From Apostichopus japonicus (taxonomy: Eukaryota; Echinodermata; Holothuroidea; Aspidochirotida; Stichopodidae): a stretch of 64,000 bases of DNA. The notes below the pieces were generated by a model that was given only the letters and a program-made list of their open reading frames with translations, had not been told where the DNA came from and ran no database searches. Position 1 is the stretch's first letter; every line of letters begins with the position of its first letter. The DNA lies in the NCBI RefSeq assembly GCF_037975245.1, contig NC_092577.1:20024898-20088897 (forward strand). The letters run 5' to 3'. A program made the translations under genes and the position numbers. Positions 2,704-64,000 of this stretch are shown piece by piece.

Positions 2704-3058
2704 ACACCGCCATTTTGAAAATCCGCATTAAAAGTAATGATTCTTTTAATTTGACCAACATTTGTTTTGGTGATTTTGGTGATATAGATAATCCTGTGAA
2801 CTTTTTAATTTTGCATGCTAAAAAGTACATTTATACTTGTAGGTTGGATAACAAAATCCCACATGTGCACGAATTTTATTTTAAGTTTCGCTTTCAACTT
2901 GACCTGCACTATTTCATTTCTAAGCATAAGAACAATTTGTGTAACCTTAACGACTTCTATGATTTCTTTATGTAAGCTTCTTATGTAAGTCTTTTTGCTG
3001 ATTCTTTTGTATTATGTGTTACGGTATTGTAAATAAATACAGTGGAAAAAAAAAATTA
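2704..3058 (+). mobile_element. 3' end of a second, different LINE
   Basis: A short open frame (about 2715-2975) encodes the kind of C-terminal tail found after the reverse transcriptase of many LINEs, with the pattern I.FG......N..IL.AKKYIY.C followed by a basic/aromatic helix. It ends in TAA, then a 3' UTR, an AATAAA signal at 3032-3037 and an A-run at 3046-3056. This is what a heavily 5'-truncated retrotransposed copy looks like. The family cannot be named from 86 residues. No clear target duplication is seen. It abuts the OTU fragment on the other strand. Confidence 0.55.
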
Positions 3059-3532
3059 AGGTGGAAGGTGGCATTTCTGAATAGCTTGGACTACTACATG
3101 TCTTAAAATATGATAATTAGCTTCTGAATTTGTTATTAAGAATGACAAACTTCTAAAGAAGCAATTGCCATCACCTGTTATTTTCCAAACATTACATGGT
3201 TTTGAAGTATTAACATACAAGATCGGACTGTTGATTTGTGGCCAATTCAAATACCAACTGATATGGATATTTTGTGTATATTGTTTCAACAGGTCAATCT
3301 TTCAAATACTCCATTCATTATTAACTGGAAAGAAAACAAATGCATCATGAGTCTGCACAGAGTGCAAATAAATATCAGTTAATGCATCAGATGAATGTTG
3401 GATTGACACATCATCCATAATTTGGGTAGAGTTTGTGCCTGATTGACATTCTTGGTTAGTTCTCCTTTGTTGCATTTGTTGTTGATTTGCTTTTTTTCTT
3501 TGCTGGTAACTCCTTTTCTTTGTTCGTGGCAT
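3056..3532 (-). pseudogene. OTU-family cysteine protease fragment
   Basis: Reading minus from 3532, a basic Gln-rich N-terminus (MPRTKKRSYQQRKK) leads to a TGA at 3304-3302. The same frame then continues into an OTU-like catalytic start: KITGDGNCFFRSLS followed by SEANYHILRHVVV. In OTU deubiquitinases the D..C pair of GDGNC is catalytic, and the following helix has this L..VV pattern. The catalytic His region is missing because the frame ends at an A/T-rich junction where the LINE piece begins. It is therefore truncated and carries an in-frame stop. OTU domains of this flavour are scattered through invertebrate transposon-like genes; whether this is host- or element-derived cannot be told. 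Confidence 0.65.
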
Positions 3533-3580
3533 GACTGATGTTTTCTGTACCTTTAATATATAAGCCTGCTTTTATAAAGT

Positions 3581-5000
3581 TTGTCCAATATGGAAATATT
3601 GAAATTGAAAGTCTGATTGATATGCAACTTATAAGGCTTCACTGATATACATGTTAATAGGCCAATTGATATGGGAGTTGATAATGTCATTGATATGCAA
3701 GTTTATTGGCTAATTGATGTGCAGGGTATCGATATGCAGGCTAAGAAGTTGATTAATATTTGATTTGAAAAGCTAATTGATATGCAGATTGTTTCAACTT
3801 TGTTAAGATTGTTAAAATTCTGTTCAAGTTTGTTCATGGATGTTAAAATTTTGTTCAATTCTAATTAAAATTCGCAAGGTTAATCAACTTTGGTTTCAGT
3901 TTCATCAATTTTTTTTCATGTTTTAAAGAAATCTAAAATTTTGTCCAAGTTTGTTCAATGGTTATTACAATTTGTTAAACTTTGTTCAAATTTCAGTCAT
4001 GATTTGTTCAACTTTGTTCAAAAATTGTTCAAATTTGGTTCAAGTTTATTCAAATTTCGTTCACGGTTGTTCAAATATGGTTCAAGTTTGTTCAAATTGG
4101 GTTCACAGTAATTCAAATTTGGAAGAAATATTTTGCAGAAATCTCCAAATGTTTTCAAGTTTGTTGAATTTTTTTTCAGATTTCTTGAAATTGTGTTCAA
4201 GTTTGTTCAAATTTTGTTTTGGTTTGTTAATATTTGTTATAATTTGCACATTAATCAAATTCATTAATTTTGTTCCACTTTTTGAAGAAACATCAATTTT
4301 GTGTTCCACTTTTAAAGAAATATAAAAGTTTCTTCACCTTATTTCCAATATTTGTTCAAATTTAATTAAAGTTGAATGGTTCATTGATATGCAAGTTTAA
4401 AAGCTGATTGAAATAAAACTTGATTGGTTGATTGATATGCAAATTGAATGTCTTATTGATACCCAAGTTGATCAGCTACTTGGTATGCCAGTTCAATGGC
4501 TAATTAGTTGATATGCAAGTTGATTGGTTGATTGATATGCAAGTTGAATAGTTGATTGATATGCAGGTTGAAAAGCAAGTTGATAGGCCTATTGATATGC
4601 AAGTTCATTGGTTGCTTGATATGTAAGTTGATTGGCTAATTGATACGCAGGGTAAGTGATATGCAAGTTGATTGGTTGATTAATATGCAAGTTGATATCT
4701 GATTGATATGTAAATTGATAGGCTAGTTGATATAAAAGTTGATAGACTGATTGATATGCAAGCTGATTGGTTGCTTGATATGTAAGTTGATTGGCTAATA
4801 GAAATATGTGATATATAGTTTATTAATATGCAGACTAATTGATATGCCAGATAAAAGTTGATTTATGTGCAAGTAGATAGGTTGATTGATATGCAAGTTG
4901 TCTGAATAAATAATATTCAGGTAAATTGATGTAAAAGTTGAATGGTTGATTAATGTTCAAGCTAAATTGATGCAAATTTGGAGAATGGTTGACAATAAGA
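3581..5000. repeat. Degenerate tandem repeats (TTGATATGCAAGTTGATTGG type and GTTCAA type)
   Basis: From about 3600-3790 and 4380-4990 a degenerate unit near 20-28 bp, core TTGATATGCAAGTTGATTGG, repeats many times. Between them (3790-4340) a related simple repeat of GTTCAAATTT-like words dominates. Short ORFs here on both strands are products of the repeat. Confidence 0.85.
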
Positions 5001-8000
5001 CTAAATAAATTTGTAGTATGACTAGAGTTCTTATGTCAAAGAAAAAGTGTAACAAATAACACAAAGTGAATAGGGAGCAATGATAGTGATTGATTGAAAA
5101 CTAAACTAAACTTAGAACAGAGCAAAATGCTTGTTGACAATATTGTAAGACTGATTACCGTATATGAAGTGGGTCAAGAGTGCAAATAACCAGGAAGTCC
5201 AACAGGAAACCTGAAAAGAAAAGAAGGAAGCAATTTTGAATATTTGTCATGAATATATATCAGCTAATGGCAATTCTCTAGACCTATTGTTATATCGACT
5301 ATAGATTACAAAAAGTGATAAGCTAAAGTATTATCCGACTTGTTGTTGAACAGCTATGTAACCATGTAATGTGTCACTGTTATTTTATATTTTATGGCGT
5401 TAAATGGTGTTAAATCAATTCTGAAACTGTTGAAATGCAACTGAAATTGTGCAAAACAGATTATTGACCAAGTTTTCAAAGAAATCGTAAATTACTTGGC
5501 AAAGTATTCCCTAGTAGCCTTACTTGTGTTCAATTGTTAGACAACATAGAGGGTTGGGTTGATGTGAACAGAAGAACTGTCAATATCTCTTTTCACTTCC
5601 ACATATTTGGGAAGTATTTTCACAATAAACATGCTGTATTTTTGTTTCTACTGTAAATGCTTGATTTTAAAGAAGTTGAGCAACAGTTTGAATTATTGTG
5701 AAGTGCAAAAGTTCATTTGTTTGTAGGTATATTGGTTATTTAAAAAATTCAATCAATTGTATCAGTTGAACCCAAAATAAAGCACATTGATGGTTATTAA
5801 AGTTCCAAGTATTGTGGATGTCACATTTGTGATTTGGTTCTGTTTTTAGAAACTGATACAACCATAATGGTGGGAATGAGAAATAACCGTGACACAAAAA
5901 TATTTCAAGAAGTGGGATGGGGCACATGTAAAAATTATCATTTTGTGATATCTTGATTGATTTACAGCTCATTTTGTCAGTGCAGCTTAAGATAACAGCC
6001 AACCATGTTTTTTTTCCACTTTGTGGCTTGCTGGATTATTTTCCCTGTTCCAATTTTTTCTTGCTGAATGTCAAGTGGACTGGCAATATGTTTTATTTAA
6101 GTCTTTGGTATGACTCAGGCAGAATTCGAAGCCTGACCTCCCAGCTGGTTTACAGCCTTAAGAAAATGGAGTTTCCCAGAGATCTTTTCTCTTTTTTTCT
6201 TTTCCCTAATCAAAATCCCTAAGGTCAAATCAAATACACAGTCCAGAAGGTCTACTAAATAAAGTTGATTGATTACACAAACCACTGTAGGTATATAGTG
6301 ACACAGTGACACATTTAATGTCTGGTATCCATCTACTGTCCATTGACTCAGTTCTTTGGAAAAATTATCATACATATCATTTATCATTAAATACAATTTT
6401 TAGTTTAAACCCTAATCTCCAGACAATAGAAGCTGACAGGACAAAATGGTAAAAAGTCAATCAGTCAAGCCTGCAAGCAATGTTAAAAGCATAATTAACA
6501 TTCCCTATTATATGAATGACTAAAAATAAGTTAGTTACAGTGTATTAAAGACTAAAGTATTCTTATATTTCCAGGGATGCAATTTCCCAAAAATGGAATG
6601 GTTTTTTAATGGACTGAATAACTATTTTGTATACAGTTTCAATGGTGAAACCATTCATTTTGCCAGTACTATGTTTTTCAAAGCTATTTCAGTATTATTT
6701 GAGGGGGGGGGGAAGCTTCATCACACCATAGACCCCATGGTTTTGCTACACAGGTATCGTCTGTAATGATTTCTCCCTTCCCCTTTTTCCTATTGCATAT
6801 CAGTTTTACCAAATGTGCACCAAATTACTGTATTTCAAATACTGCATTGATGATCAATCGGGAAACAATTATGTGTCATTATTCATCACAGTACTAAGGT
6901 AATATTGAAGGCCTGTCTACGATTGGCATATTAAGCTATATTTCTCAAAATGGTATTCAGATGCAAACAGTCTTTGGCTCTTCAAAATTTGTAAAACAGG
7001 GATATTAAGTTGGTTTTCTTGATTTGAGTCTTTATTGGCACTTAAATAAAATTGAAATGGTTGCATATTCTGAAAATCCAGACCACTTGGGTGGTACTGT
7101 ATCATCAGATGTACACAAAAATGTTGATCGAACCAATCAATATTATGAGAGGGGGAATACCCCATGTGCCACCCTAAGATGTTCACTGACATGTTCATTG
7201 GTTTACGATAACAGTTTGTTTGTTTTCTTTCATTACTCCAATCAAGACTATATGATTGCTTCGGTATCCTAGTGTAATGATAAAGCTATATTACTATGTA
7301 CCATCATCATTATACCATGTAGCAATAAAGGGATCATGATATTAATAATGTGAAAATGAACACCTAGTTTCCTTCATCAGTTCATTTCATTTCAGCAAGA
7401 AACATTTTTTTTTCGAGTCAAGTTGAGTAATGTCATAAGTACCCTGTGTGTGAAACGTATAGGTGGTATGTCGGATGGCTATATAATATTGCCTATATAT
7501 ATATTATTAATTGGAAAATGTTAGGATATAAAGTTTTCTTGGAGCCTGGTATTTAGTCATGTTTACTTTGTCTGTGATTAAGTATCAAATTCATAGTTTC
7601 ACTATAAAATTAATGTTCATATCTTTACTACAGGTGATCTGACAAGCACAAAAGTTGATACAAATTTCAAATAACCAATAAGAAAGTAATACAAGTCACA
7701 AGTCACCCAGATGCAGGTGAACTATTGGATTACAATAGCTAACTCCCAACCTTAATGTCCATCCATGCATGCATTCTATCAGTCATCACTGCTGATAATA
7801 ATCTGAAGTGGAGACAGCTGCTTGACCTCTCAAGTACAAAAGTTGGCAAATTGTCCAAAAGCCAAGTTCAATGTTTGGATAAAGCATGAGGTATCTCATC
7901 AGTGGCAACACTAGCCTTAGTAAACCAGGAATTTGGCGGGGGCGGGGGGGGGGGGGGGCAACCAGGAGACAAAATAGATTCTTGTGAGGTGTAAACATGT

Positions 8001-17800: not shown

Positions 17801-20800
17801 TCTGGGAACGGAAATCAATTTCTAGACACATTTTTGGACTACGACCCACGGTCTAAATGAAAGACAATTACTAATTTGCCAGAAGTTGAGACTAATTTCA
17901 GGGCATTGTTAACTTTTTCATAGAATTGCCCTTAATTTAAAAAACACTCACCATAGAGGTCATCATTTTTCACGGGTGTTGGCCGGTTGGAGATACGCCT
18001 CGGTGTTAAGGTTTCTTCATGCCTACTAGTAATATGTGCCACTGGTGAAACCCCTGGTGTGTCCAAATCTTCCTGAAAGCAATAACAACCATTTCACTGC
18101 AGCAGCATTCAGTACTAATTTGAAGTCAAATACCTAACAAGGGATTCAACATTCAGCAATCATGCAGTATTTAATTACTTCAAAGCAGACAGAGCTGACC
18201 TGTTCACTAAACCAGAATGCACACATTCTGTGAACAGTTAAAGTACCCCCCCCCCCAAAAAAAAAATAACATAACATTTAACACACACAGTGACATGCAC
18301 TGGTCAGTTATCACTCCAACAACGTCAAGTCAAGTGTGACATATGTCAACTTCATACAAGACTTCTCTGGTGACCTTATATACAACTTATGTTGCAATTT
18401 GAATAATTTAACATCTGACCCTGTGACCTCAATGATATTTGTGATACACTGTATAAGCATAGATATTAAACAATAGGTTTCGTCTACTCCATATGAGTCT
18501 TCCACCCACAATGTTTTTTGGATGAAAAATCATTTCCTTGTTGATGTAGCAAGGTAGCTAAAATGTATTTTTGTTCTTATAATAAATTAATTTGTCTAAT
18601 GCTATAACATCCTTGAATTCTTGAAAGTTTAGACTTGCTCCAGACATTTTCTTCCTGAGTAATCCCCAACTGATCCTCTGTAACATGACATCACTATTTT
18701 ATTTTTTAGGAAATTGGTTCAGTGACCCGTGAAGTCTATTACTCTGTGGTATAATCTTTTGCTCCGTATCCACTAATTAAAAGAATACTCCAGGTCATTA
18801 TCATAACTTTGTGGATCCTTCTAAATAATCTAAAAGTACCATATATCTAGTTCAGTAGACTAGATTATTGACAAGAGTAACATAATATTCAAATTTACCA
18901 CTCAATTTTCGAGATAAAAATGTTCAAGCCAGCCTCATGAATATTTAATTACTACTATTTAGTGACGTACAACTTTCACTACTTGTTTACATTAAATAGC
19001 AGAAAATTACCTACCACAGTGCAAAACACACTAACAAGACATAGTGTCTGGCTGATCATGTTAAGGGCTTAAAAAACCTCCAAAATATTAATTGTGCTAT
19101 CCCTAGCTCTGCTGCACTCTAGCGAAAAAATGGATAAGTTTTAAAGCGCAGACGACTAGACGTCGTAGTATTGTTTGGTTTTCCGACTAATTAAAATTCC
19201 CTTTTGTGCCAGTGGAAGAAGCCAATAATTTAACTTGTATGATGCTGGATATTTTAACCATTTAAAAATGTACCGCGATGGCCACGAAAGAATTAATTTA
19301 TGTTTACAAACTATACAAGGTTATATAGTTTTCCCACATACCCGAGACAGGTGATAGGACCCGAGTGTATCAAGTTTCTGGTGGTGGTGGAAGCTCGCTT
19401 TGCTGTTTTGCAGGTCCATCTATAGATATAAAAGTAACGCTTAAACCAATACACAAATTTTAAGTCATCATAAAGGAACACTGTAGAGTTGACCCCAAAT
19501 CCCCGACAACACTCACTACCCATATTCCTATGATGATTGCAGTGCCCAAGTGTCATCAAAATTTATAAGGGGTGTACCGGATATCCGGTACCCCCTGATA
19601 TTTTTTATTATCCGGTCAGATATTTTTAGAAATCCGGCTGGAACCGGATCTTTTTCAAAATGTTATAAGCAGCTGTCAGCACAAGTAAACAAGGGCGTAG
19701 GAACCGGGGGGGGGGGGGCACCAGGCCCCCCAGTCAAAATATGGAGGGGTGGAAGTATCATTCCGCTTCGCAAGTCAGAAAACCCCTTTTTTATTTCCAA
19801 ATGAGAAAAAAATCTCATTTGAAGCAACAAATTGCATCTAAGGCCAGGTGAAAATGCAAGAGTTTTTGGTTCCTTGCTTTAGCAAAAGGAACCTATGCAG
19901 TCAGGTTGGCGTGTGTGTGTGTGTATGTATGTATGTGTGTGTGTGTGTGTGTCTGTGACACTTGCTTGGGTACGCTCTATCTCAATAAGGGAATGTTGGA
20001 TTGAGGCCAAACTTTGACTATAGATCCGCCATATGGAGAAGGTGTGCCCTATTTTTTCTGGTGCCCACAAAGGTCACCAAAGGTCAGTTATGGTCCAAAA
20101 ACCGAAAATATTAAAACTGCAATAACTCCCAGTGCCAATGTGTGACAAGATTGATATTTTAGGACAAGTTGTGAACTGGTTAGGGGAGCATTTTCAAACT
20201 TAACGGTCATGTGATCCGAGGTCACCAAAGGTCAATTAATGATAAAAAACTAGTATTTTTGCGATAACTTGAGAACAAATTGTCCGTTAGGGTTGGGAGT
20301 TGCTTCAATGTTATCCAATTGTCGACCCGCATCTCGGTGACCCTTGACCTCAATTTGACCTCTGGTGACCTTGACGTGTTTTTGGGGATTTTTACAGTTT
20401 TGATGCTATTTTCAGATGTCAAAGGTACCTTCTGATCATAAATGTCAATGGGTTGACCCCGTGTGACCTTTATGTGCGAAGTTATATGGGGTCAAAGTTT
20501 TTCGGTCGGAGTTAGGATGGTTGTACAGACTTGTCGTTTTGTTTTTTGGAATCAGGAGATTAAACAACATCTGAAACCAAGCTCAAAAGGTCAAAGGTCA
20601 CATTAGAAAAAATGTGCTTATTTTGGGAGGAAACGAGCAAAAAAGGAAATGTTTGGTTTTGATGCTAGATTTGGATATCAAAGGTACCTTCTGATCATAA
20701 ATGTTAATGGTTGACCCCCGTCTGACCTTCGTGTGCGAAGTTATATGAGGTCAAAGTTAATTTTCACACATTTAATGCAATTACTCCCAGTTCCAAGTTG

Positions 20801-23800
20801 TGACAAGGTTGATATTTTTGGAGTAGTTGCAAATGGTATAGGGGAATATTTTCAAACTTAACGGTCATGTGATACAAGGTCACCAAAGGTCAATTAATGA
20901 TAAAAAACTAGTATTTTTGCGATAACTTGAGAACAGATTGTCCGTTAGGGTTGGGAGTTGCTTCAATGTAATCCAATTGTCGACCCGCATCTGGATGACC
21001 CTTGACCTCAATTTGACCTCTGGTGACCTTTTCGTGTTTTGTGGATTTTTACAGTTTCGATGCTATTTTCAGATGTTAAAGGTACCTTCTGATCATAAAT
21101 GTCTATAGGTTGACCCCCATGTGACCTTCGTGTGCGAAGTTATATGAGGTCAAAGTTAATTTTCAGACATTTAATGCAATAACTCCCAGTTCCAAGTTGT
21201 GACAAGGTTGATATTTTTGGAGTAGTTGCAAATGGTATAGGGGAATATTTTCAAACATAAGGGTCAGGTGATCCGAGGTTACCAAAGGTCAATTAATGAT
21301 AAAAAACTAGTATTTTTGCGATAACTTGAGAACAGGTTGCCCGTTAGGGTTGGGAGTTGCTTCAATGTAATCCAATTGTCGACCCGCATCTGGATGACCC
21401 TTGACCTCAATTTGACCTCTGGTGACCTTTTCGTGTTTTGTGGATTTTTACAGTTTCGATGCTATTTTCAGATGTTAAAGGTACCTTCTGATTATAAATG
21501 TTAATGGTTTGACCCCCGTCTGACCTTCGTGTGCGAAGTTATATGAGGTCAAAGTTAATTTTCACACATTTAGTGTAATAACTCCCAGTGCCGAGGTGTT
21601 ACACAGTTGATATTTTGAGACAAGTTGCAAATGGTATAGGGGAATATTTTCAAACTTAAGGGTCATGTGATCCGAGGTCACCAAAGGTCAATTAATGATA
21701 AAAAACTAGTATTTTTGCGATAATTTGAGAACAAATTGTCCGTTAGGGTTGGGAGTTGCTTCAATGTAATCCAATTGTCGACCCGCATCTGGGTGACCCT
21801 TGACCTCAATTTGACCTCTGGTGATCTTTTCGTGTTTTGTGGATTTTTACAGTTTCGATGCTATTTTCAGATGTTAAAGGTACCTTCTGATCATAAATGT
21901 CAATGGGTTGACCCCCATGTGACCTTCGTGTGCGAAGTCATATGAGGTCAAAGTTAACTCGCAGTGCCAAGGTGTGACAAGGTTTATTTTTTTGGACAAG
22001 TTGCAAATGGTATAGGGGAACATTTTCAAACTTAACGGTCATGTGGTCCAACGTCACCAAAGGTCAGCTAATGTTAAAAAAGTAGTATTTTTGGGGGGGG
22101 GGGGGAAATGGGCAAAGAAAAATGTTTGAATTTTTACAGTCATGCTCTTTTTAGGTCTCACCGATCAAAAATGTCAATTGCTTGACCTTCGGGTGACCTT
22201 TGTGTGTGAAGTTATGTATACAAGTTCAAAGTTAATTTTTTTTAATTTAATGCAATTAAATCTCAATGCCAAGGTGTGACATGGTTGATATTTTGGGACA
22301 AGTTGTGAACGGGGTGGTGGAACATTTTGAAACTTAAAGGTCATGTCATCTGAGGTCACCAATGTTATCATATCTGTTGACACGCTTGTAGGTCTCTTAT
22401 ATTTCTTACATTTTCGACGCCATATTTAGATCTCAAAAGTGCCTTTTGATCCAAAATCCGATCACATTTTGTGATCACAAAAGTGTTGGCTATAGTTTTG
22501 GTTACTTTATGGGAACATGTACGACCACAATTACTTGACTATTTGAGCCCAATCTTGCTTGATAATATTATGTGTATTGTCATATACCCCAAGCAAGGAA
22601 CCACAGTGCCCTTGGGCTCTTGTTACAAAATGGAGTGGGTGTTGAAGTGTGCTACATTGCACCAAATTGCATCTGACGCCACCTGGAAATGCCCAAAAAT
22701 TCCAAAGGGGAGGGGGTGTGGGGAGGGGGACAACCCATCCCCTTAGACTCCTCCCCCAGGCCGGCCATCAGTCTTCAGCCCCCCACTCAAAAGTACCTTC
22801 CGATGCCACTGCAAGTAAATGAGAACTAATATGAACATTATCATGATAATGAAGAGTCCAAAAGGCTCAGTGATATTCCTTTGCTTACTATATAAACCAA
22901 AATCATAGTGAAAGAGCACACCATTAGAATTATCCAATAGGGATTATCATTAAAGATATAGTCTGACAAACACGTGTGTATATCAGCGCATCAGACTACA
23001 TAGTCATTTTTTGAGTGAAAATATTAGTAGCAAGTTTCTGGGTGAAGATAGGAGCACACTTACGTCGTCCCATCAAAATAATCATGGCTACACGTACGTG
23101 AATGGCCCCTATAGGCCTGTACCCTTCCTTTTGATGTGCCATTATAACTACAACCTGGTCCGGCTGGATAGTTGGTACTATCCGGGATAATTCAGGATCC
23201 GGTACATCCCTAAAATTTATTGGGAATGCAAGCACAGGGTCACTTTCAACAATTGTTCACAGATAGATAGAAAGGGTGATAGAGTGATAGGTATGAGAAG
23301 GTAAGGATATTGGAAGGGATAATATGGGATGGGGAGTGGAAGGAGCGGACAAGATAATTGTCCAGATATGGGAAGGGAAAGGGAGGAATGTGAAGTTCAA
23401 GATATGGGAATGGGAGGGGGAAGAGAATATGGGAATTGTAAAAGGTAAGGGGAACGAGGGGATTTAATAGGAAAAGGATGGCGTGAACATCTGTACTGAA
23501 AATGAAGAACCAACATCATGGAAAATCATGAAGACATCAGTATTTATAACGGAGGTATGAAAACTGATGTATCAGCATATAATATGATATAAACTCTGAG
23601 TTTTTCTGAGTGTAATACACTGTACATGTACCTGTTCTGAAAATCATACAACATATTCCTAATATAAGTACACAATTTTGTATTTACCTACCTTATTGCC
23701 TCAGCACAGTGTGCTTCTATTAGAATGAATATGGCCACAGCAAATTTTCAACAGGAAACGTTTCTTTCCTAAATTTTTAGGATTTTATTTACCAGATTCA

Positions 23801-36224: not shown

Positions 36225-39200
36225 ATGGCCCATACTTTTTCAGTTGCCACTTTCAACGTCAATGGCATGAGGGATCATCGCAAGCGCAGTCGCATTTTCC
36301 AATATTGTATTTCAATGGAAGTCGACTGCGTTTGCCTGCAGGAAACATATTTTGGAAGAAGATGTCCCTCTATGGGCTTACGAGTGGGGTGGTGGGCTGC
36401 ATGCTTCGTTTGGTTCGTCTTCATCCTGTGGCACTGTCATCCTTCTGTCACCTCGTCAGGCGGGTTGTGCCACTAGGGTGGAGACGGATCACGAGGGCCG
36501 ATTGGTTTGCATTCTATTCAAGTATCCACAGGGTAACATCTCCCTTTGCAATGTGTATGCTCCCAATCGGCCTTCTGCTAGACGAGAATTTTTTAACACG
36601 CTACCTTCCTTTGTTCCTGGTAGTGCACCATGTGTCATGGTCGGAGACTTTAACTGTGTCCCAGACTCGGGTCTTGACAGACTCGGGGCCTCTGTGTCTG
36701 CTAGTCCTGACGCTGGGATCACAGAATTGGACAGATTCACTTCGCCACACCATTTAGCCGATGTCTGGAGGCATATGCACCCGTGTAGTACGGTGTATAC
36801 GTGGATGGGGTTTAACGGAGAAGATTCCTCCAGGATAGATCGAGTGTATGCGCCCGTAAGTTTTAAATTTTCGGGTTGCGAGACGCTCAGCTGTCCGCTC
36901 TCTGACCATGACACTGTAGTAGCACGTTTTGTTTTGCCTTCCATTTTCCCGATCGGGCGGGGCCTATGGAAGCTTAACTGTCGGATTCTTGGCGAGGCAG
37001 AGTTCCGCCAAGGTTTCGAGACCAGGTACAAAGGATGGCAAACATTGAAGCCGGCCTTTGCTTCTACATCCCAATGGTGGGATGATGTCAAGTTGCGCAT
37101 CAAACGCTTCGCAATTCAGTATTGCGTGACCCGCGCACGGCGTCGAAGAGAACATTTTTCGAAGCTGTGCGCGGAGGTGAAGTTTGGCGACCCTTCGGCT
37201 GTCATCGCTTTGCAGACCTATCTCGATGAAAAGTACCACGGTGCCCGCGTCAGGGCCCGTGTCGAAGCGGTGGAAGCCGAGGAACGCCCTTCACTGAGGT
37301 TTTACCAGTCCGTAAGCTCATCGGCGTGTGACAGACGCGTCCCGTCTGTGCGCGCTACTGATGGGACCGTGGTTAGTGACCCTCACGGCATTGTCCGCGT
37401 ATACAAGGATTATTATTTGAGTTTGTTTACGCGTGGCAGTGTCGACTTGTCGGCACAGGCCGATTTATTGAAGGGAATCTCAAAAACCGTTCCCCACGAT
37501 GTCAATGATATTTTGGGGGGCGGAATAACCACTGTTGAGCTTTGGAAGGCGCTTTCGACGATGAAGAATGGCAAGTCCCCGGGTTCGGACGGGCTTCCGA
37601 GGGAGTTCTACCGAACCTTCTGGGCAATAACAGGACCCGACCTCAGAGCCGTCTTCGAGGACGCCTTCCAAAACGGACTGTTAAACGAAAGTCAACGTCT
37701 GGGCATGATTACTTTGCTGCCCAAGTCTGGTGACCCCTTGGACCCTCATAACAAGCGTCCAATCACCTTGTTAAATGTAGACTACAAGTTGTTGGCTAAG
37801 GCTTTGTGCAACCGTCTTGCACTGGCTATGCCGCATCTTGTGGGTGATCTCCAGACTTGTGCAGTGAAGGGTCATTGCATCCAGCAGAACTTGTGGTTGA
37901 TGCGCGACTTGACCGACTTTGTTATTGAACGAGATCTGCCATGTGCATTGGTGTCTCTGGACCACCAGAAGGCCTTTGACATGGTGGATCGGGGGTTTTT
38001 AATGAATGTATTGGAGACGTTTCAGTTGCACCCTGTTTTTCGTAAATGGATTTCTGTTTTGTATCAGGAAAGTTTCAGTTCTGTTATCGTAAATGGGTTT
38101 TGTTCGGAGGTTTTTAACGTGGAGAGGAGGGTGCGCCAGGGGTGCCCTCTGTCTCCATTACTTTGTTTTGTTTAGCGAGTCCCTGTCTCGTCTTTTGGAA
38201 AGGGACTCAAGACTTGTTCCATTCGTTGTGCCAGGGGGTGCCAAAGTGAAGTGCGTTCAATATGCAGATGACGTCACGTGTGTTATTTCGAGTCTGGGCT
38301 CCTTTCGTGCTCTCTCGCAGAATTTATCTATCTTTGAGAGAGCTACCGGGGCGAAGTTGAATCCGGAAAAGACAAAGGGCCTTCGCCTTGGTAGCTGGAG
38401 ATACAGAGACTTACCATTCGGTGCATCGTGGTCGGATCAAAATATCAAAATTAATGGTATATGGTTCGGCTGTGATGCACCTTGTGATGTAACCTGGAAC
38501 GAGAGGGCTGAGGTTCTTGAGAGCAGGCTCGAAACCTTTGGCACCCGCTGGCTTTCGATCCTAGGGAAAGTCACCGTAATTAATCGTTTTGTTTCGCCCA
38601 TCTTGTGGTACCCGGGCGCGGTGTATCCAATTCCGCGTCGCGTCCTGGTGCGGTTGGAGAGAGCGATATTTTCATTTATTTGGTCGGGTGGTACAGAGCT
38701 TGTCAAAAGGGCGCTAATGTAGCAAAAACTGGAGAAGGGTGGGTTAGGGGTGGTTCATCTGGGAAGTAAATTAACCTTTTTGTTATTTAAGCAGTTGTTT
38801 GTAGCGGTAACTGACCCACGGTTGCCTTGTTCATATTTTTTACGTTTTTGGGGCGGTTTGCACCTGCGTCGATGGGTCCCGGCGCTGTTTAGCAACAGAG
38901 AACCGCATAGTAGTACTCCAAACAGGGTGGTGCGTGTCATTTGCTCCGCCCTGATTGAGTTGCCCCCTGTTGACCTGTCACAGCCGGCCCTCGTTCACAG
39001 TTCGTTGCAGGATAGGGCCTTGAATGCAATTTTTGTCCAGGGACGTCATTCTGCCGAAGTATGGCGTTCGGTGCATTCAAGGCTGAATGGTGGCAGGCTC
39101 CGTGATCTTGCATGGAGAATTGCACACGGTGCCTTGGTGACGAACCTAAAAAGATACCATTGGCGATTGGGTGATGGACTGTGCCCGAGGACCGGCTGTG

Positions 39201-39612
39201 ACAGCTTAGAGAGTACCGCTCATGTTTTTTGGCATTGTTGCTTTGTAGTTAACTTATGGGAGTGGTTCCAGACCTGGACCGACCGTGTTACGGGAGACCG
39301 TTCATGGTCGGTAGGACAGGGCTTTATTTTATATGGGGTAGACCCTCCAGTTTGTTCGGTTGCTGTTTTGCATCGCATTATTTTTGTTGCTCTACTGTGA
39401 AAAAACATGTTTGGCGGAATAGATGTGATGTGGTTTTTAGGGGGAAATTTGCCAGTTGGCAGGCAGTCCTGGAGGCGGTGAAGTCTGATATTCGCCTTCA
39501 GATTGAAGGCGATTTTCGCTGGGGCTGCCTTTTTTGGACGCTGGTGTGCTGGGGAGGGGTTTTTCGTTTCGCTCCGTACTGGTCGTCCTTTTGTGGTTTT
39601 TTGAATGTTTGA
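36225..39612 (+). pseudogene. LINE ORF2: APE endonuclease and reverse transcriptase, decayed
   Basis: Begins MAHTFSVATFNVNGM at 36225. AP-endonuclease motifs follow: NVNGM, CLQETYF, a GDFNCVPD block near 36643, SRIDRVY and LSDHDTV. The reverse transcriptase has NGKSPGSDGLP (about 37570), KRPITLLNVDYKLLAKAL, VSLDHQKAFDMVDR, VRQGCPLSPLL and catalytic YADD at 38261-38272. The C-terminal CCHC block (CPRTGC...HVFWHC) lies near 39183-39240. Damage: frameshifts near 36350, 38165 and 39395 and an in-frame TAG at 38720-38722. About 1,130 codons, a normal length. It nicks target DNA and copies the element RNA in intact relatives; this copy cannot. Confidence 0.92.
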
Positions 39613-57959: not shown

Positions 57960-58096
57960 ATGTGAGAGACTGACTTCGGTCAGCTTGCGGCTTTGATAAG
58001 CCAATTAGGCTTCTTCGCGAGTTCCTGCTTGCAGGAGGATCTAATATACATACATACATAACATACATACATAACATACATACATACATACATACA

Positions 58097-58128
<32 letters not shown>

Positions 58129-58160
58129 CATACATACATACATACATACACACTTACATA
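57960..58160. repeat. (CATA)n microsatellite with repeat head
   Basis: About 27 CATA/ACATA units (58045-58152) preceded by a GC-richer head with AAGCC.AATTAGGCTT and CCTGCTTGCAGG palindromes. Confidence 0.85.
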
Positions 58161-58164
58161 CCAG

Positions 58165-59433
58165 CAAGAGTTACATTGTGGGGTTTTTGCTGTATGAACA
58201 GTATGGGGTGAATCATTTCAGTACATGGGTACCATATGGGTATACCAGAAAAAGTTTGTACAGTGATACAATGTGGGAATATTAAGTATGTACCATGTGG
58301 GACTATTCACATGCCTCCCTGTGGGGTTGAAATATAACTGCACTGTGGGTATAGAAATGTATATGTGCACTGTGGGAATATTAAATAACATTGTACAGTA
58401 CTACTCTGTAAGTAGAAATGCTGGTAACTGCGTTGTGGGATCAGTGGTTTACTAATAAACTAGTGAGTGAATTTGAGCATAATGCCTGATCTGCAGGGGT
58501 TGTGCATTTGTAGATCCATAAAGTGAAATATAGCTAATAGGAGAGGAACAAAATTTTCAAAGTACCTTTAGCTACTAATACTCAAAAAGTGGAAATTCAA
58601 AAGAAAGAAAAAACAATGGCATTTTCAATACTTCCAGGTGTATTTGATGACTCTTATCTATTACATTGCATCAGAATATGACAATGCATACATATGTTGT
58701 TGATATATCAAAGTCATATACTGTAACGGAACTTGCTGGTAATTAAAAAAAAACATGAATTAGCAACAGATTTGTTTTTCCTTTTCAACAAACTTTAACA
58801 AGAACAAGTTTTGATCAGTGAATGAACATGGAAACATATACGAGGGGATAAAACGGTAACAACTGCCTTTCTTAGAAAATATTCTCCAAGAACTGAAAAT
58901 GAAAAACAAATTAGATGTTTTCAAGTGCATGTTTTGTTGATGTCTTCTAGCGGTAGTCAGTTAATTTTATGTAGACATCATATTACACTAATAACATCTT
59001 GAAGCTTCTATGTCATGGATTACTGCTAACTACAATATAAACCAGCGTGATGCCATCGGTGTTCAATGATCACAAACTGACTACTGCCTATGAATAACAC
59101 AAATGCATAAGAATGAAAGTTGATGTAATAATTAATGGAACCTTGTCCAAAGCAAATGAGGTGATAAAAACTTCTCACGTTTCACCCACCCAAACTTTTT
59201 AAGATACTGTCTTTACAATGTTTTAAAGAATTTACCATCTCTTGCCCTAAATTATATGACCTTCAACCCCAAGAATAGCTACTTCCCAGTCACTAATTAT
59301 GCACCAGCTGTTCAACAAGTGGTTTAAAACTTTGACCTCTGGTTAACTGAAATGACCTTTGAAAGTCATGTAAAACAGTAGGCATCATTTACATGTACGT
59401 CACAACCTACATACTATGTCCACCCTCTTATGG
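58165..59433. other. Degenerate GTGGG repeat, then intergenic
   Basis: 58170-58450 has loosely repeated ACAATGTGGGAATATTAA-like words. 58450-59433 shows no feature and may hold the 3' UTR of the gene ending at 59434. Confidence 0.45.
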
Positions 59434-59672
59434 TTATTTCCCCTTCGTCCGCATCCAACTAACTTTGGCCTTAATACTTTTCAGTGGTATCTTCCACATT
59501 GTGCCCCCCTTTTCTTTACTGGTTTCGATAGCCTTCTTGACAGCCTTTTCCCCGGGTGTTTTGTTTCTCTTAAAGTAAATGTTGAACAGCTGTCTGACTT
59601 CATCGATTTCAGCCGGAGTCCATGTATGCCTCTTGGTTACCTTCCTTTTCTTCTTTGATTGTCTTGTTCTAC
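59434..59672 (-). CDS. YR-like gene, terminal exon (Myb/SANT-like)
   Basis: Acceptor TTGATAG before 59672 joins in phase with 60036 to make a Cys codon. It encodes a basic run (SKKKRKVTKR), HTWTPAEIDEVRQLFNIYF, KTPGEKAVKKAIE and MWKIPLKSIKAKVSWM, then TAA at 59436-59434. The W...E...V...F / PG / W..I..KV pattern suits a small DNA-binding helix bundle. Confidence 0.7.
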
Positions 59673-60035
59673 CTATCAAGAAGAATGTGCCATAGATCAG
59701 ATTCTCATCTTATGTTACATTGCAGAGGCTAATGTCACTGATCCTGAATTGAAGCTGAGTAAAATAACATCATAGCTGGCTGGTGTGTACTTTTACATCA
59801 TTAGTAGACTCGTAGGAAAAGAAACATTTGAATCACAAATTTTACATTTCATGATTAGTAGGGGAAACAGAACCTCAAATACAAGATGCCTTGACCTTTT
59901 GACCACTCCTGGTTATGAACTTCCAGCATTTTTTCGTGAAATACTTTTACCTATTTACTACTTTTGAACCAAAAATTCCCACCCATACACATTTTTTTGG
60001 CTTTTGAACATTACATTTAGTACTCTGAGACTTAC

Positions 60036-60194
60036 ATGTGCCCAAAGATTCTTCTTCTTCCTGGGGTAAATCAGGCAGATATTCCTCCTCAGCCTCAGAG
60101 TCACTACAGTAGTTAGAGTGTTCAAACTGCTCTTCATCTTCATCTGTTGGTTCACCCACAGTGGCGCCATTAGTCTTGGGTCCATCAAGAAGCT
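60036..60194 (-). CDS. YR-like gene, acidic linker exon
   Basis: Acceptor TCTTTGCAG before 60194 and donor ACAT|GTAAGT at 60036. It encodes LLDGPKTNGATVGEP, DEDEEQFEHSNY, SDSEAEEEY and LPQEEEESLGT. A longer alternative end at 59951 also has a GT donor, but the short form fits the next exon's phase. Confidence 0.65.
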
Positions 60195-60627
60195 CTGCAA
60201 AGAAAGGAAATATTCATAACCACTAAAAACTCCTGAACAATGTATTAATTGCTTTAGGGCGAGGATGCAAATAACACTGTCATTATTTCTTGACACACTG
60301 GTATATCAGCATTGGGAATGAGTGCAAATAAATGTTCCCAACTTTTGGACAGATATTACCTACAGATTGGTTAGTTTTCATGAACATGCATATTCAAAGA
60401 GTTTGGACTTTGGGCAAGAAGCACTATGAATGCTGAGCAACAAAGGTTTCAGCAATGGAGTTGATTGTTTTCAGTGTTAACATGAAATAGTGGGTTTGAA
60501 GTTATATAAACGCCACACTGTACCCAGAACAACAACACTTTCATGGCATGATCAGGCCAAATAACACAACATGAAGGTTTCAACCACAGTAAAGGGAATT
60601 TAGTGTAGAAGAATCCTTGTAAAATAC

Positions 60628-60822
60628 CTTGAAACTTAATATCTTCCACTTTCTTGTTCTTGAACCGTCCAATATGCCCCGAATCCATCATCAGCAGTAA
60701 CTTAGTGATATCAATCCTCTCAATTATGTCGATGGTGGAACGCTAATGAATGTGATGAATGTCCAACGTGTGGCCCATGTGGTCCACTACCCATTGTTGC
60801 TGCTGGGCAGATATGTTGATCC
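60628..60822 (-). CDS. YR-like gene, exon with GH motif and lost Tyr
   Basis: Acceptor TATGCAG before 60822 and donor CAAG|GTATTT at 60628. It encodes ISAQQQQWVVDHMGHTLDIH, HIH, TAG (60745-60743), RSTIDIIERIDITKLLLMMD and FKNKKVEDIKFQ. It needs a phase-1 partner while the upstream exon ends in phase 0, so one base or an exon is missing. Confidence 0.6.
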
Positions 60823-61297
60823 CTGCATAAGAGGACAACAAAATATTATTCTACTTATACGTATTTTCTGTTCAGATAACTATGTGCATCCGGTTTAGAC
60901 ATGAAAGTGAAACAGATAACTCATATGATCCATAGAACTGTGATAAGTTGTTTCATTCACTACATTAAAGAGAACAGTTTTCAAATTTTCTTTTATATCT
61001 CTAGGTTTGACAAATAGCCGCTTAATGTCAAGAATGTCACATTTAGTTCTATTTCATACAGAAATTTTCATCGTTCACGACCAGAAACCACCAGCTGCCA
61101 CCTTCATTAGAGGACACAATTCAAGTACAGACCGGAGAAACAGAACAAGACAAACTGTTGTGAGTCATATACATACACATGACAAGATCTTCATGACTAA
61201 ACCAGGTCCCATGGTGAATAAAAAAAGTAGTCTCGCTTTTCAGGTACATAATTAGCAAAAGGCAATCACAAATATATAGAATTTAAAAGACAGTTAC

Positions 61298-61416
61298 CTG
61301 GGTCATTGTAGCGATGTACTTTCTCATGTTTGTTGCCCTTATTCGTTCTGGGTTTTTTAGCTTTGCAGCAGTTTTCATGACACCAGTCGCGTAACCCCCA
61401 CGAATAACACCAGACT
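61298..61416 (-). CDS. YR-like gene, exon with second catalytic Arg
   Basis: Acceptor CTTCACAG before 61416, donor CCAG|GTAACT at 61298. It encodes SGVIRGGYATGVMKTAAKL and NPERIRATNMRKYIATMTQ. ATNMRKYIAT corresponds to the H..RH..AT box of tyrosine recombinases, with Thr three residues before the Arg instead of His. Confidence 0.65.
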
Positions 61417-61700
61417 CTGTGAAGTATGAAAAGTAATTGCCACGCACGTTCTACAATTTAAATCTATAAGCCTACAATTCAATATACAGACACATCCACA
61501 CAAGTGAAACAGACAATATTCTTTGGTTCTTTAATATGAACACACTGGTGAAAAAAACTGGGATACACATTTAATATGTGCTGGCATAGGTATCAAAACC
61601 TTAACATTCCTTTTTATCTGAAAATAGAGTACGAACAAATGATATACCTGGATCCGTTTTGAAATACATACTTGTTAGAATAAAGAGGAATACAACTTAC

Positions 61701-61827
61701 TGTTATTGGCAAAAATGTAAGTATTAGTTGTTGATATTCCTGCTTCATTTCTTGTTTGCTTTCAGGTGATAAATTCCATGAGGGGTTTCACATATGATGG
61801 TAAGATAACAGGCACAAATTTTCCACA
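61701..61827 (-). CDS. YR-like gene, exon with VPV block and TGA
   Basis: Acceptor CCACTTCCAG before 61827, donor AACA|GTAAGT at 61701. It encodes CGKFVPVILPSYVKPLMEFI, a TGA at 61764-61762, then KQTRNEAGISTTNTYIFANN. Phases fit both neighbours, so the exon is real despite the stop. Confidence 0.6.
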
Positions 61828-62261
61828 CTGGAAGTGGTAAGAAAAGTGACTTTTTCAGGAGGAAAATTAGAAATGAATAGAATAACAGTACACCCCCCAT
61901 CTTCCAGTACTGCTTTCTTTCAATACCCAACAGCTGTTCTTATTTCTTTGTATGATATTTCCTCATTTTATTGTGTTTCATGTAAAAAGCTACCCCATAG
62001 AAATACGCTACAAAATATTTCAATAATATTATTACATGACAAAAACCCTTTCAATATCAAAAAATTATTGTAACTGATTTCTAGTAGTTAATGTATTGAA
62101 TCATCTGTTTGTATAGGTCATGTCAGTCCCATCAGTTTTGCTGTTCTTACCATTAATACAAAGTATCTTAGACATATATTATGTACTGCATGTTGCCCCT
62201 ATTTTCAGTTTGAAAGTACCAGCATCTAGGGTACTCTATATGTGTGCACAATATTTATTAC

Positions 62262-62385
62262 CTTGCCCCTGACCTCCATTACATCCTGTTCAAGTAGTAG
62301 TCTTCTTTCAAAATCTGTTAAATCGCCAGTAATGGCTTCGGTAACTTCATCGGTGCCCGACTTTCGAGCGAAGTATTTGGCAGCT
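62262..62385 (-). CDS. YR-like gene, exon 2 in the window
   Basis: Acceptor TTCACAG before 62385 completes the Lys codon of exon 1. It encodes KAAKYFARKSGTDEVTEAI, LTDFERRLLLEQDVMEVRGK. Donor GCAAG|GTAATA at 62262, phase 0. The RGK end is the start of the beta hairpin bearing the recombinase Lys. Confidence 0.7.
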
Positions 62386-63230
62386 CTGTGAAGTAAATTT
62401 GACATTTCCTCATTAATTGATGTCCATTACTTTGAAAAAGAAGTTATAGTATAATATCATGTAATGCCTGAGTTCAATCAAGAACTCTCTACTTGCAAGC
62501 CAGAATGCTTAATATCCTTTTCAGCTAATAAATGAATAAACTGATCACAATAATATGGAGGGTATTAGAGAATTAGGAAAGCAGCAGAAATGTGGTTGGC
62601 TGACCAGTGCCATGTTGTATTGACATTCCTGCAAAATGCACAAATGATCCCACTTCAGAGGCATAATTATGCTATAATTTAGCCTAGGCATCTTTGATAT
62701 CCCTCCGAACATAAACATGCACCTAATCCAGGGAATCTTGCTAGAATGTATTGCTTATAGCCACCAACTATGATATTTGCCTACTTACATTACACACTCC
62801 AGGTCTGGGGTTATTCTATTTTTCAAAGCCAATCAAACCTGATTTAAATGGTTGTTTTAAATGATTGTGAGAACTCAAAAACTAATGGTGACCCAACAGG
62901 GGAGTGGGTTGCATGCTTTCTTTTGTCATATTAATACTCTGAGAGATACATAACCAGTCATGGTTCAGCACCCAGCTAGATGGCAGTTCAACCTCATACT
63001 TGACACAAGTATACAAATACATAGGAGTGCAAATTAATGATACTTGTTTAAGCAGAAACATGTATGCAAATCTTAAGAAACACCAGATGAATGTCTTACT
63101 CAGTCGTACATAACTTTACATGATTGAAATAAGGCCTTTGTAAATGGAAGACCAGATTCATATTTGATGACTTTAACCAGGGCACCATTATGAATTACAG
63201 TAACCAATAACCCATTTGAAATTCACTCAC

Positions 63231-64000
63231 TTTATTGCTTGGACATCTCCGGGTCTTCTGCGGTTGTAACTAATGAGGGCTGCCAGGGCCACGATTACCA
63301 CTTTTCTGAAGTTGGCATAGGACATGTCTTCAAAGTTACAAGAAACTGCCTCATTAGTCAGGTACTTGCTGAATGCCACCACATCACTTGGGAGAGGAAC
63401 AGGCTTGTTCTCCACTCTTCTTCTCTCTTCCAGTACAACCCGTTCCAGTTTGGTTGTCCATTGAATGGACATGAGCTGCAGAAAATCTTGGGCTGCCTCC
63501 TTTTTGTCTTTGCTGTGACTTTCAATGGCCTTCCCTAGTTTGATGTTGGCCAATCTTTTTATGTCAAATGACAACTTGAGGGCATTTGATGGTGCCTTCA
63601 AGTTCTCCTCATCATGAGCATCTTGACCAGCTACTTTGAGAGTTGCACGGACAAAATGACTGAAATATGCAGGATCTACGTAGTCCTCCATGTCATTACC
63701 TGTGTTTGGTGTCACCATGCCTCTAAGTGCCACAAGTAATCTGCTTGAAAGACGCATGGCTGCCGAAACATAGTATTTTCGCATGAGCCGGTTCCCAAGA
63801 TTTCTCAGCAGCCACTCATTCCCAAGAGTTACAATTAAGGGGTCAGTCATCGCAAGTTTGCCGATTGCATCGTTTCGCATAATCGGAAAGACTTCCTTCA
63901 CAATGTTGCTACTTGCCTCACCATTTAGTCTTCCGGCTATAATAGCACTCTGGATGATTAGGTTCCCTTTCGTTTGATTGATACCTTTCTCACTACCAAC
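63231..64000 (-). CDS. YR-like gene, large exon (partial at window edge)
   Basis: Open for 256 codons from the edge to donor AATAAA|GTGAGT at 63231. It encodes KEVFPIMRNDAIGKLAMTDP, YYVSAAMRLSSRLLVALR, YVDPAYFSHFVRATLKVAG, LKAPSNALKLSFDIKRLANI, LPSDVVAFSKYL and finally ALISYNRRRPGDVQAIK. The mostly helical region before RRRPGDVQ would be the core-binding domain. No methionine is needed here because the frame comes from further upstream. Confidence 0.8.

Follow-up and report, generated by a model that had tools for sequence, protein, structure and literature searches.

Animal DNA transposons that rely on a tyrosine recombinase are few and poorly described. DUF3504 proteins are domesticates of one such group, the Cryptons, and SETMAR is a single primate gene in which a SET domain is combined with a mariner transposase. 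Cryptons are DNA transposons found in the sea urchin and medaka, and their animal members are described as having no C-terminal domain (PMC3212892). The tyrosine recombinases of endogenous nimaviruses possess a zinc-binding motif, are encoded in some cases by multi-exon genes, and insert into microsatellites; they reside in large viral genomes together with viral core genes, and their targets are (TAACC)n or 28S ribosomal DNA (PMC10871703). Here we analyze a 64,000-nt stretch of the Apostichopus japonicus genome (G000:C17:20024898-20088897, hereafter the window; assembly of 671.6 Mb in 35 contigs). We consider it quite probable that the window contains a decayed copy of an intron-bearing mobile element family encoding a tyrosine recombinase with two zinc-finger-like motifs. 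Because many near-identical copies, a precise common 3′ terminus, and 3′ microsatellite flanks were found, the family is interpreted as recently active and probably microsatellite-targeting. Tyrosine-recombinase transposons as such are already known, and the family would be an intron-bearing, microsatellite-flanked variant among them.

The gene is read from the minus strand, and its start lies beyond the window edge, in locus L009. Its exon A, which lies within an open frame of 503 codons, contains, in order, an acidic start, C2H2-like and C2HC-like fingers (assigned by Cys/His spacing, without a Pfam match), a long helical region, and the box I arginine in NRRRPGDVQ. The remaining exons are listed in Table 1; all exon boundaries have AG acceptors, and GT donors are present in all but the last exon. 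The first-pass annotation had described seven exons joined by phase, with the recombinase motifs in the order box I Arg, hairpin Lys, second Arg, GH, and Tyr site, followed by a Myb-like tail. The motifs are indeed present in this order on the minus strand, and their arrangement is not a matter of chance, because the relatives of the window copy show the same order and spacing. The joining by phase holds for five of the six junctions, whereas the remaining one is out of phase: the NMRKYIATM exon ends in phase 0 (CAG/GTAACT), yet the HMGH exon would have to receive one base from it. The Myb-like character of the tail was not borne out, as no Pfam Myb family was matched at E ≤ 1 by the tail exon of the window copy or by that of L022, the one relative scanned with its tail.

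The recombinase core of the window copy is interrupted by two in-frame stops, neither of which had been mentioned in the first-pass annotation. One is a TGA in the CGKFVPVIL exon, and the other is a TAG that falls exactly nine residues after the GH pair (GH+9), in the slot of the nucleophile tyrosine. The window copy is unable to encode a working recombinase because of this TAG, the upstream TGA, and the out-of-phase junction; it is an inactive, decayed, and divergent relic that extends from a 3′ end at approximately 58153 to beyond the window edge. An alternative is a host gene domesticated from such a recombinase, with catalysis lost and DNA binding kept in the window copy. In its favor are the divergence of the copy (the closest other match is 33% identical, among the matches listed), its many introns, and the long open frame around exon A. 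Nonetheless, the TGA and the phase break upstream of the lost tyrosine point to plain decay, and both the LINE-type (long interspersed nuclear element) insertion recognized by eye in the 5′ region and the preserved element-like 3′ end argue in the same direction. Given these three lesions, and the place of the copy in a mobile family with many members, domestication is not supported, and we regard it as very unlikely.

The genome was searched with the part of exon A that lies in the window, a query reaching only the box-I end of the core. At least 80 family matches were obtained, including the window copy and 79 others; in 71 of the 80 the matched part has no stop, and many matches sit in open frames of 650–1498 aa. 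Thirty loci were fetched, namely the window copy and 29 relatives (L011–L039) on which the counts below are based, the other 50 matches being left out. The fetched loci include seven groups of copies that are located on different chromosomes and are about 97–99.8% identical along the 3.7-kb loci, either throughout or for the greater part (the latter in L029). Two copies of the 744-aa group, located on contigs C9 and C11, match each other at 98% identity across 14.5 kb. Ten overlapping pairs compared by the Nei-Gojobori method gave small numbers of differences, approximately 32 synonymous and 34 nonsynonymous, at a ratio of sites of about 1:3.6 (ratio of nonsynonymous to synonymous differences per site, pN/pS, of about 0.3). 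Such near-equal counts at roughly 3.6 times as many nonsynonymous sites suggest purifying selection on the family copies. The multi-exon structure and the very long common stretches would also fit multicopy host genes spread by segmental duplication rather than by transposition, but copies on different chromosomes have one and the same 3′ end and differ beyond it, and we give this explanation hardly any credence. The contig of the window, C17, accounts for 37.2 of 671.6 Mb, so that about 4 of the 80 matches would be expected on it by length, but 19 are located there (counting the window copy), as are eight of the nine matches with internal stops; this chromosome may have low recombination or be decaying for another reason.

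The catalytic residues of a tyrosine recombinase are conserved in the relatives. The box-I arginine and the second arginine were found in 28 of the 29 loci, and the hairpin lysine was recognized by pattern in 27 (L017 and L018 miss the pattern). An intact tyrosine nine residues after the GH, which the first-pass annotation had suggested looking for in paralogues, is also present in 28 of 29 loci, as opposed to the stop codon of the window copy; 27 of these loci match the motif pattern, and L034 departs from it at another residue. All four motifs are absent from L018. In an alignment of nine relatives, which together represent all seven groups, R281, K330, R405, H431, and Y440 are invariant and are ordered and spaced as in XerD, with an invariant threonine (T402) at the position of the HxxR histidine. 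The family profile was further compared, as one hidden Markov model (HMM) with another, with a profile of 80 XerD relatives supplemented by E. coli XerD, lambda Int, and Cre. The hhalign alignment (E = 0.0021, 267 columns) places R, GK..VP, LR..AT, LGH, and Y in register, and its score of 32.9 was reached by none of 150 column shuffles (16.0 for the reversed alignment control).

A number of observations weigh against this assignment. The similarity to known recombinases is very weak: the HH probability of the hhalign match is 13%, and the best shuffle scored 31.8, near the real value. HMMER comparisons with XerD in both directions were near noise (best, 7.6 bits), and the family profile found no recombinase among PDB sequences, with a single irrelevant row at E = 1.5. 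Pfam lists Phage_integrase for only two of nine members, and a genome-wide search with that family found 16 places over the cut-off, none of them at the family matches listed. A structure predicted by AlphaFold2 for the window exon had a mean confidence (pLDDT) of 36 and no usable fold. In addition, the loci for the alignment were picked by a pattern demanding GH and either a tyrosine or a stop at +9, and therefore the invariance of the GH and Tyr columns is partly due to choice. Comparisons with viral sequences yielded only weak rows of unknown function in PHROGs (E = 0.14 or worse) and no relative of the recombinase family in two IMG/VR scans. We did not count as support the Phage_integrase match in L036 (residues 547–594, below the cut-off), which lies before the motifs at 628–775. 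The recombinase reading is considered likely because of the conserved catalytic set and the XerD register, and not because of any library match; for the family it has support that falls short of proof, whereas the window copy itself has no catalytic tyrosine. The 16 Phage_integrase places (L002, L003, and others) are distinct from the family matches listed and may be DIRS-type or other recombinase elements.

The first-pass annotation had suggested a Crypton-like or domesticated recombinase lineage. A divergent, intron-bearing element of the Crypton superfamily, from CryptonA or some other group of Repbase, would share with our family the enzyme and the element class, and Cryptons are recorded in the sea urchin and medaka (PMC3212892). 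The DUF3504 family, however, produced no row at E ≤ 1 for the open frames of seven relatives and nine core segments, scanned without a Crypton positive control, and a C-terminal extension is seen in both L022 and the window gene, whereas animal Cryptons are described there as lacking a C-terminal domain. By profile and description, membership among the Cryptons is not shown; it appears possible but on the whole unlikely.

When the 3′ end of one copy of the 744-aa group was used as a DNA query, nine matches at eight places were obtained. Seven of the nine share an exact 3′ end, GTAAGAACA, and are divided into two subfamilies, the first terminating in ...GGCTAGTAAGAACA (five copies, L047–L051) and the second in ...GGCATGTAAGAACA (two copies, L054 and L055). 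Beyond this terminus the flanks diverge, yet each of the seven opens with ACAT, CA, or mixed repeats, which are impure in two cases. The relic in the window ends similarly, its putative terminus being followed by TGTG(TATG)n. A shared terminus with differing flanks that all start in repeats makes insertion into microsatellites likely, as far as can be judged from the sequences. Against this stand the two remaining matches (L052 and L053, at one place), which have no shared terminus, and the fact that only 3′ ends were seen, whereas neither a 5′ terminus nor an empty site or an excision product was observed. The repeat could, accordingly, be a tail of the element itself, as in some non-LTR (long terminal repeat) retrotransposons, and this is the principal alternative with respect to the target. 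It agrees with the start of the repeat right at the terminus in all seven cases; on the other hand, L050 and L051, which belong to the five-copy subfamily, continue into impure CA/CATA rather than ACAT runs, and no long reverse-transcriptase-like frame was listed in 15.7 kb of the copy on C9 (copy A), so that we hold a tail to be improbable and retain microsatellite insertion as the preferred interpretation.

The region just inside the terminus of the relic is crowded with short words. The last 400 nt on the minus strand contain 11 CCCACA-type words against a shuffle mean of 0.55 and maximum of 4, and the 1-kb bin from 58000 has eight TGTGGG-type words on the plus strand and none on the minus strand. 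This crowding varies among copies, since the end of L054 is rich in such words (nine on both strands; shuffle maximum, 4), whereas the end of the C9 copy, with only four, is within the shuffle range (maximum, 5). We propose that the fingers and the core-binding region would bind the subterminal CCCACA-type words, and that the tyrosine nucleophile would cut and rejoin both the end of the element and a microsatellite of the ACAT/ATGT or CA type. Strand exchange would probably involve a circular intermediate and a short core common to both partners, with the core, the circle, and the 5′ end all conjectural.

An additional set of exons was observed in copy A only. Upstream of its recombinase exon there are 17 copies of a 45-bp exon, TICEANDEIVTENSK, and its one-residue variants, which are spaced by about 495 bp, have AG and GT sites each, and are preceded by one diverged copy. 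The number of these exons can vary without a frame break because each is 45 bp long and in phase 0. The relic in the window has a related habit, with symmetric exons of 78, 63, and 78 bp located 5′ of exon A, with both 78-bp exons embedded in a 147-bp repeat (97% identity). The array of copy A is in turn preceded by three SET exons, two of which match Pfam SET (2.3e-7 and 3.4e-8), while the short first exon is unmatched; the best PDB match of one of them is KMT5A (6.7e-10). The NH motif of KMT5A reads ND in copy A, and methyltransferase activity is therefore uncertain. The phases of the SET, array, and recombinase exons, as read from the printed sequence, fit together, and therefore a single SET-array-recombinase fusion protein is possible.

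A broader proposal can be formulated on this basis, and we advance it tentatively, as somewhat less than an even chance. The family might constitute a previously undescribed lineage of animal DNA transposons, large in size and interrupted by introns, that encode a single fused protein and insert into ACAT/CA microsatellites. This protein would combine a KMT5A-like SET histone methyltransferase, a variable run of 15-residue peptides (encoded by the tandem array of near-identical symmetric exons), a pair of zinc fingers, and a tyrosine recombinase. The methyltransferase would then mark the chromatin of the target or of the element, thus easing insertion or escaping silencing.

Table 1. Features of the relic in the window and of copy A on contig C9 (positions refer to the window unless another locus is named)
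Feature	Location	Strand	Basis or remark
Exon A	L009:896 to window 63231 (in window: 63231..64000)	-	Open frame and family alignment; carries NRRRPGDVQAIK
Hairpin Lys exon (MEVRGK)	62262..62385	-	Splice sites and phase fit
CGKFVPVIL... exon	61701..61827	-	In-frame TGA at 61764-61762
Second Arg exon (NMRKYIATM), TNMRKYIATMTQ	61298..61416	-	Phase-0 donor mismatched to next exon
HMGHTLDIH exon, HMGHTLDIHHIH then stop	60628..60822	-	TAG at 60745-60743, position of the nucleophile Tyr
Acidic linker exon	60037..60194	-	Sequence and frame
Basic C-terminal tail exon	59435..59672	-	Myb-like in the first-pass annotation; no Pfam Myb match
Subterminal array of CCCACA-like words	58172..58445	-	Word counts
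Putative 3′ terminus GGTATGTAAG	58153..58162	-	Resembles GGCATGTAAG of L054 and L055
ACAT/ATGT microsatellite beside the 3′ terminus, presumed target	58046..58161	.	Period 4, 29 copies
KMT5A-like SET exons (copy A)	L056:157-2335 (C9:21967756-21969934)		Immediately 5′ of the array, phases matching
Exon array in tandem, about 17 repeats with a unit length of about 495 bp (copy A)	L046/L040, about C9:21971640-21979864		One near-identical 45-bp phase-0 exon per unit

Several other repeats and elements were noted in and near the window. The LINE-type element in the 5′ region of the relic precedes the second 78-bp exon (L009, about 2964–7850) and consists of a zinc-knuckle open reading frame and a 1114-aa endonuclease-type frame, the LINE assignment being made by eye and not by a family search. 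An imperfect GTACT repeat lies upstream of the relic at L009:9543-9634. Within the window, a second LINE-type set of endonuclease/reverse-transcriptase readings (36271-39400) and a zinc-knuckle frame (775-1389) both resemble the L009 element by eye, and a tandem repeat with a period of 399 bp (3.2 copies, 94% matches) is located at 20680-21957.

The dozens of open-frame copies, several of them near-identical, would offer systems for testing insertion, and a preference for one microsatellite class, if true, would show how an element avoids genes. A SET domain travelling with the element would physically join a chromatin-modifying enzyme to a mobile recombinase, a combination of which we recognized no description in the open-licence literature; it would be the striking part of the family if general.

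When compared with known systems, the family combines features of several of them. It resembles Xer and phage integrases in the order of R, K, R, H, and Y, in the GH-to-Tyr spacing of nine, and in the GK..VP hairpin, but its identity to them is very low and the HxxR histidine is replaced by threonine in the nine aligned members. The DIRS, Ngaro, and PAT retrotransposons likewise use a tyrosine recombinase, whereas the 15.7 kb listed for copy A contain no frame over 111 aa beyond the recombinase and microsatellite frames (frames listed, not searched against families). As in SETMAR, a SET domain would be joined to a transposon enzyme, although here the SET exons lie ahead of a recombinase exon, in a single copy of a family with many members. 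Endogenous nimaviruses share with it the zinc motif combined with a recombinase, the multi-exon genes (in some cases), and the microsatellite insertion (PMC10871703); they differ in their targets and in their setting among viral core genes, no viral gene having been noticed by eye among the frames of copy A. Like Cryptons, the family has a tyrosine recombinase as its only recognized mobility enzyme, and no long terminal repeat was apparent where its copies end on the 3′ side. It differs from them in its much larger size (14.5 kb common to two copies, and more than 19 kb in copy A if the exon array belongs to it), and in its introns, finger-like motifs, C-terminal extension, microsatellite flank, and absence of a DUF3504 match. 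By analogy, the family would work like Cryptons and like the microsatellite-inserting nimaviral recombinases (PMC10871703).

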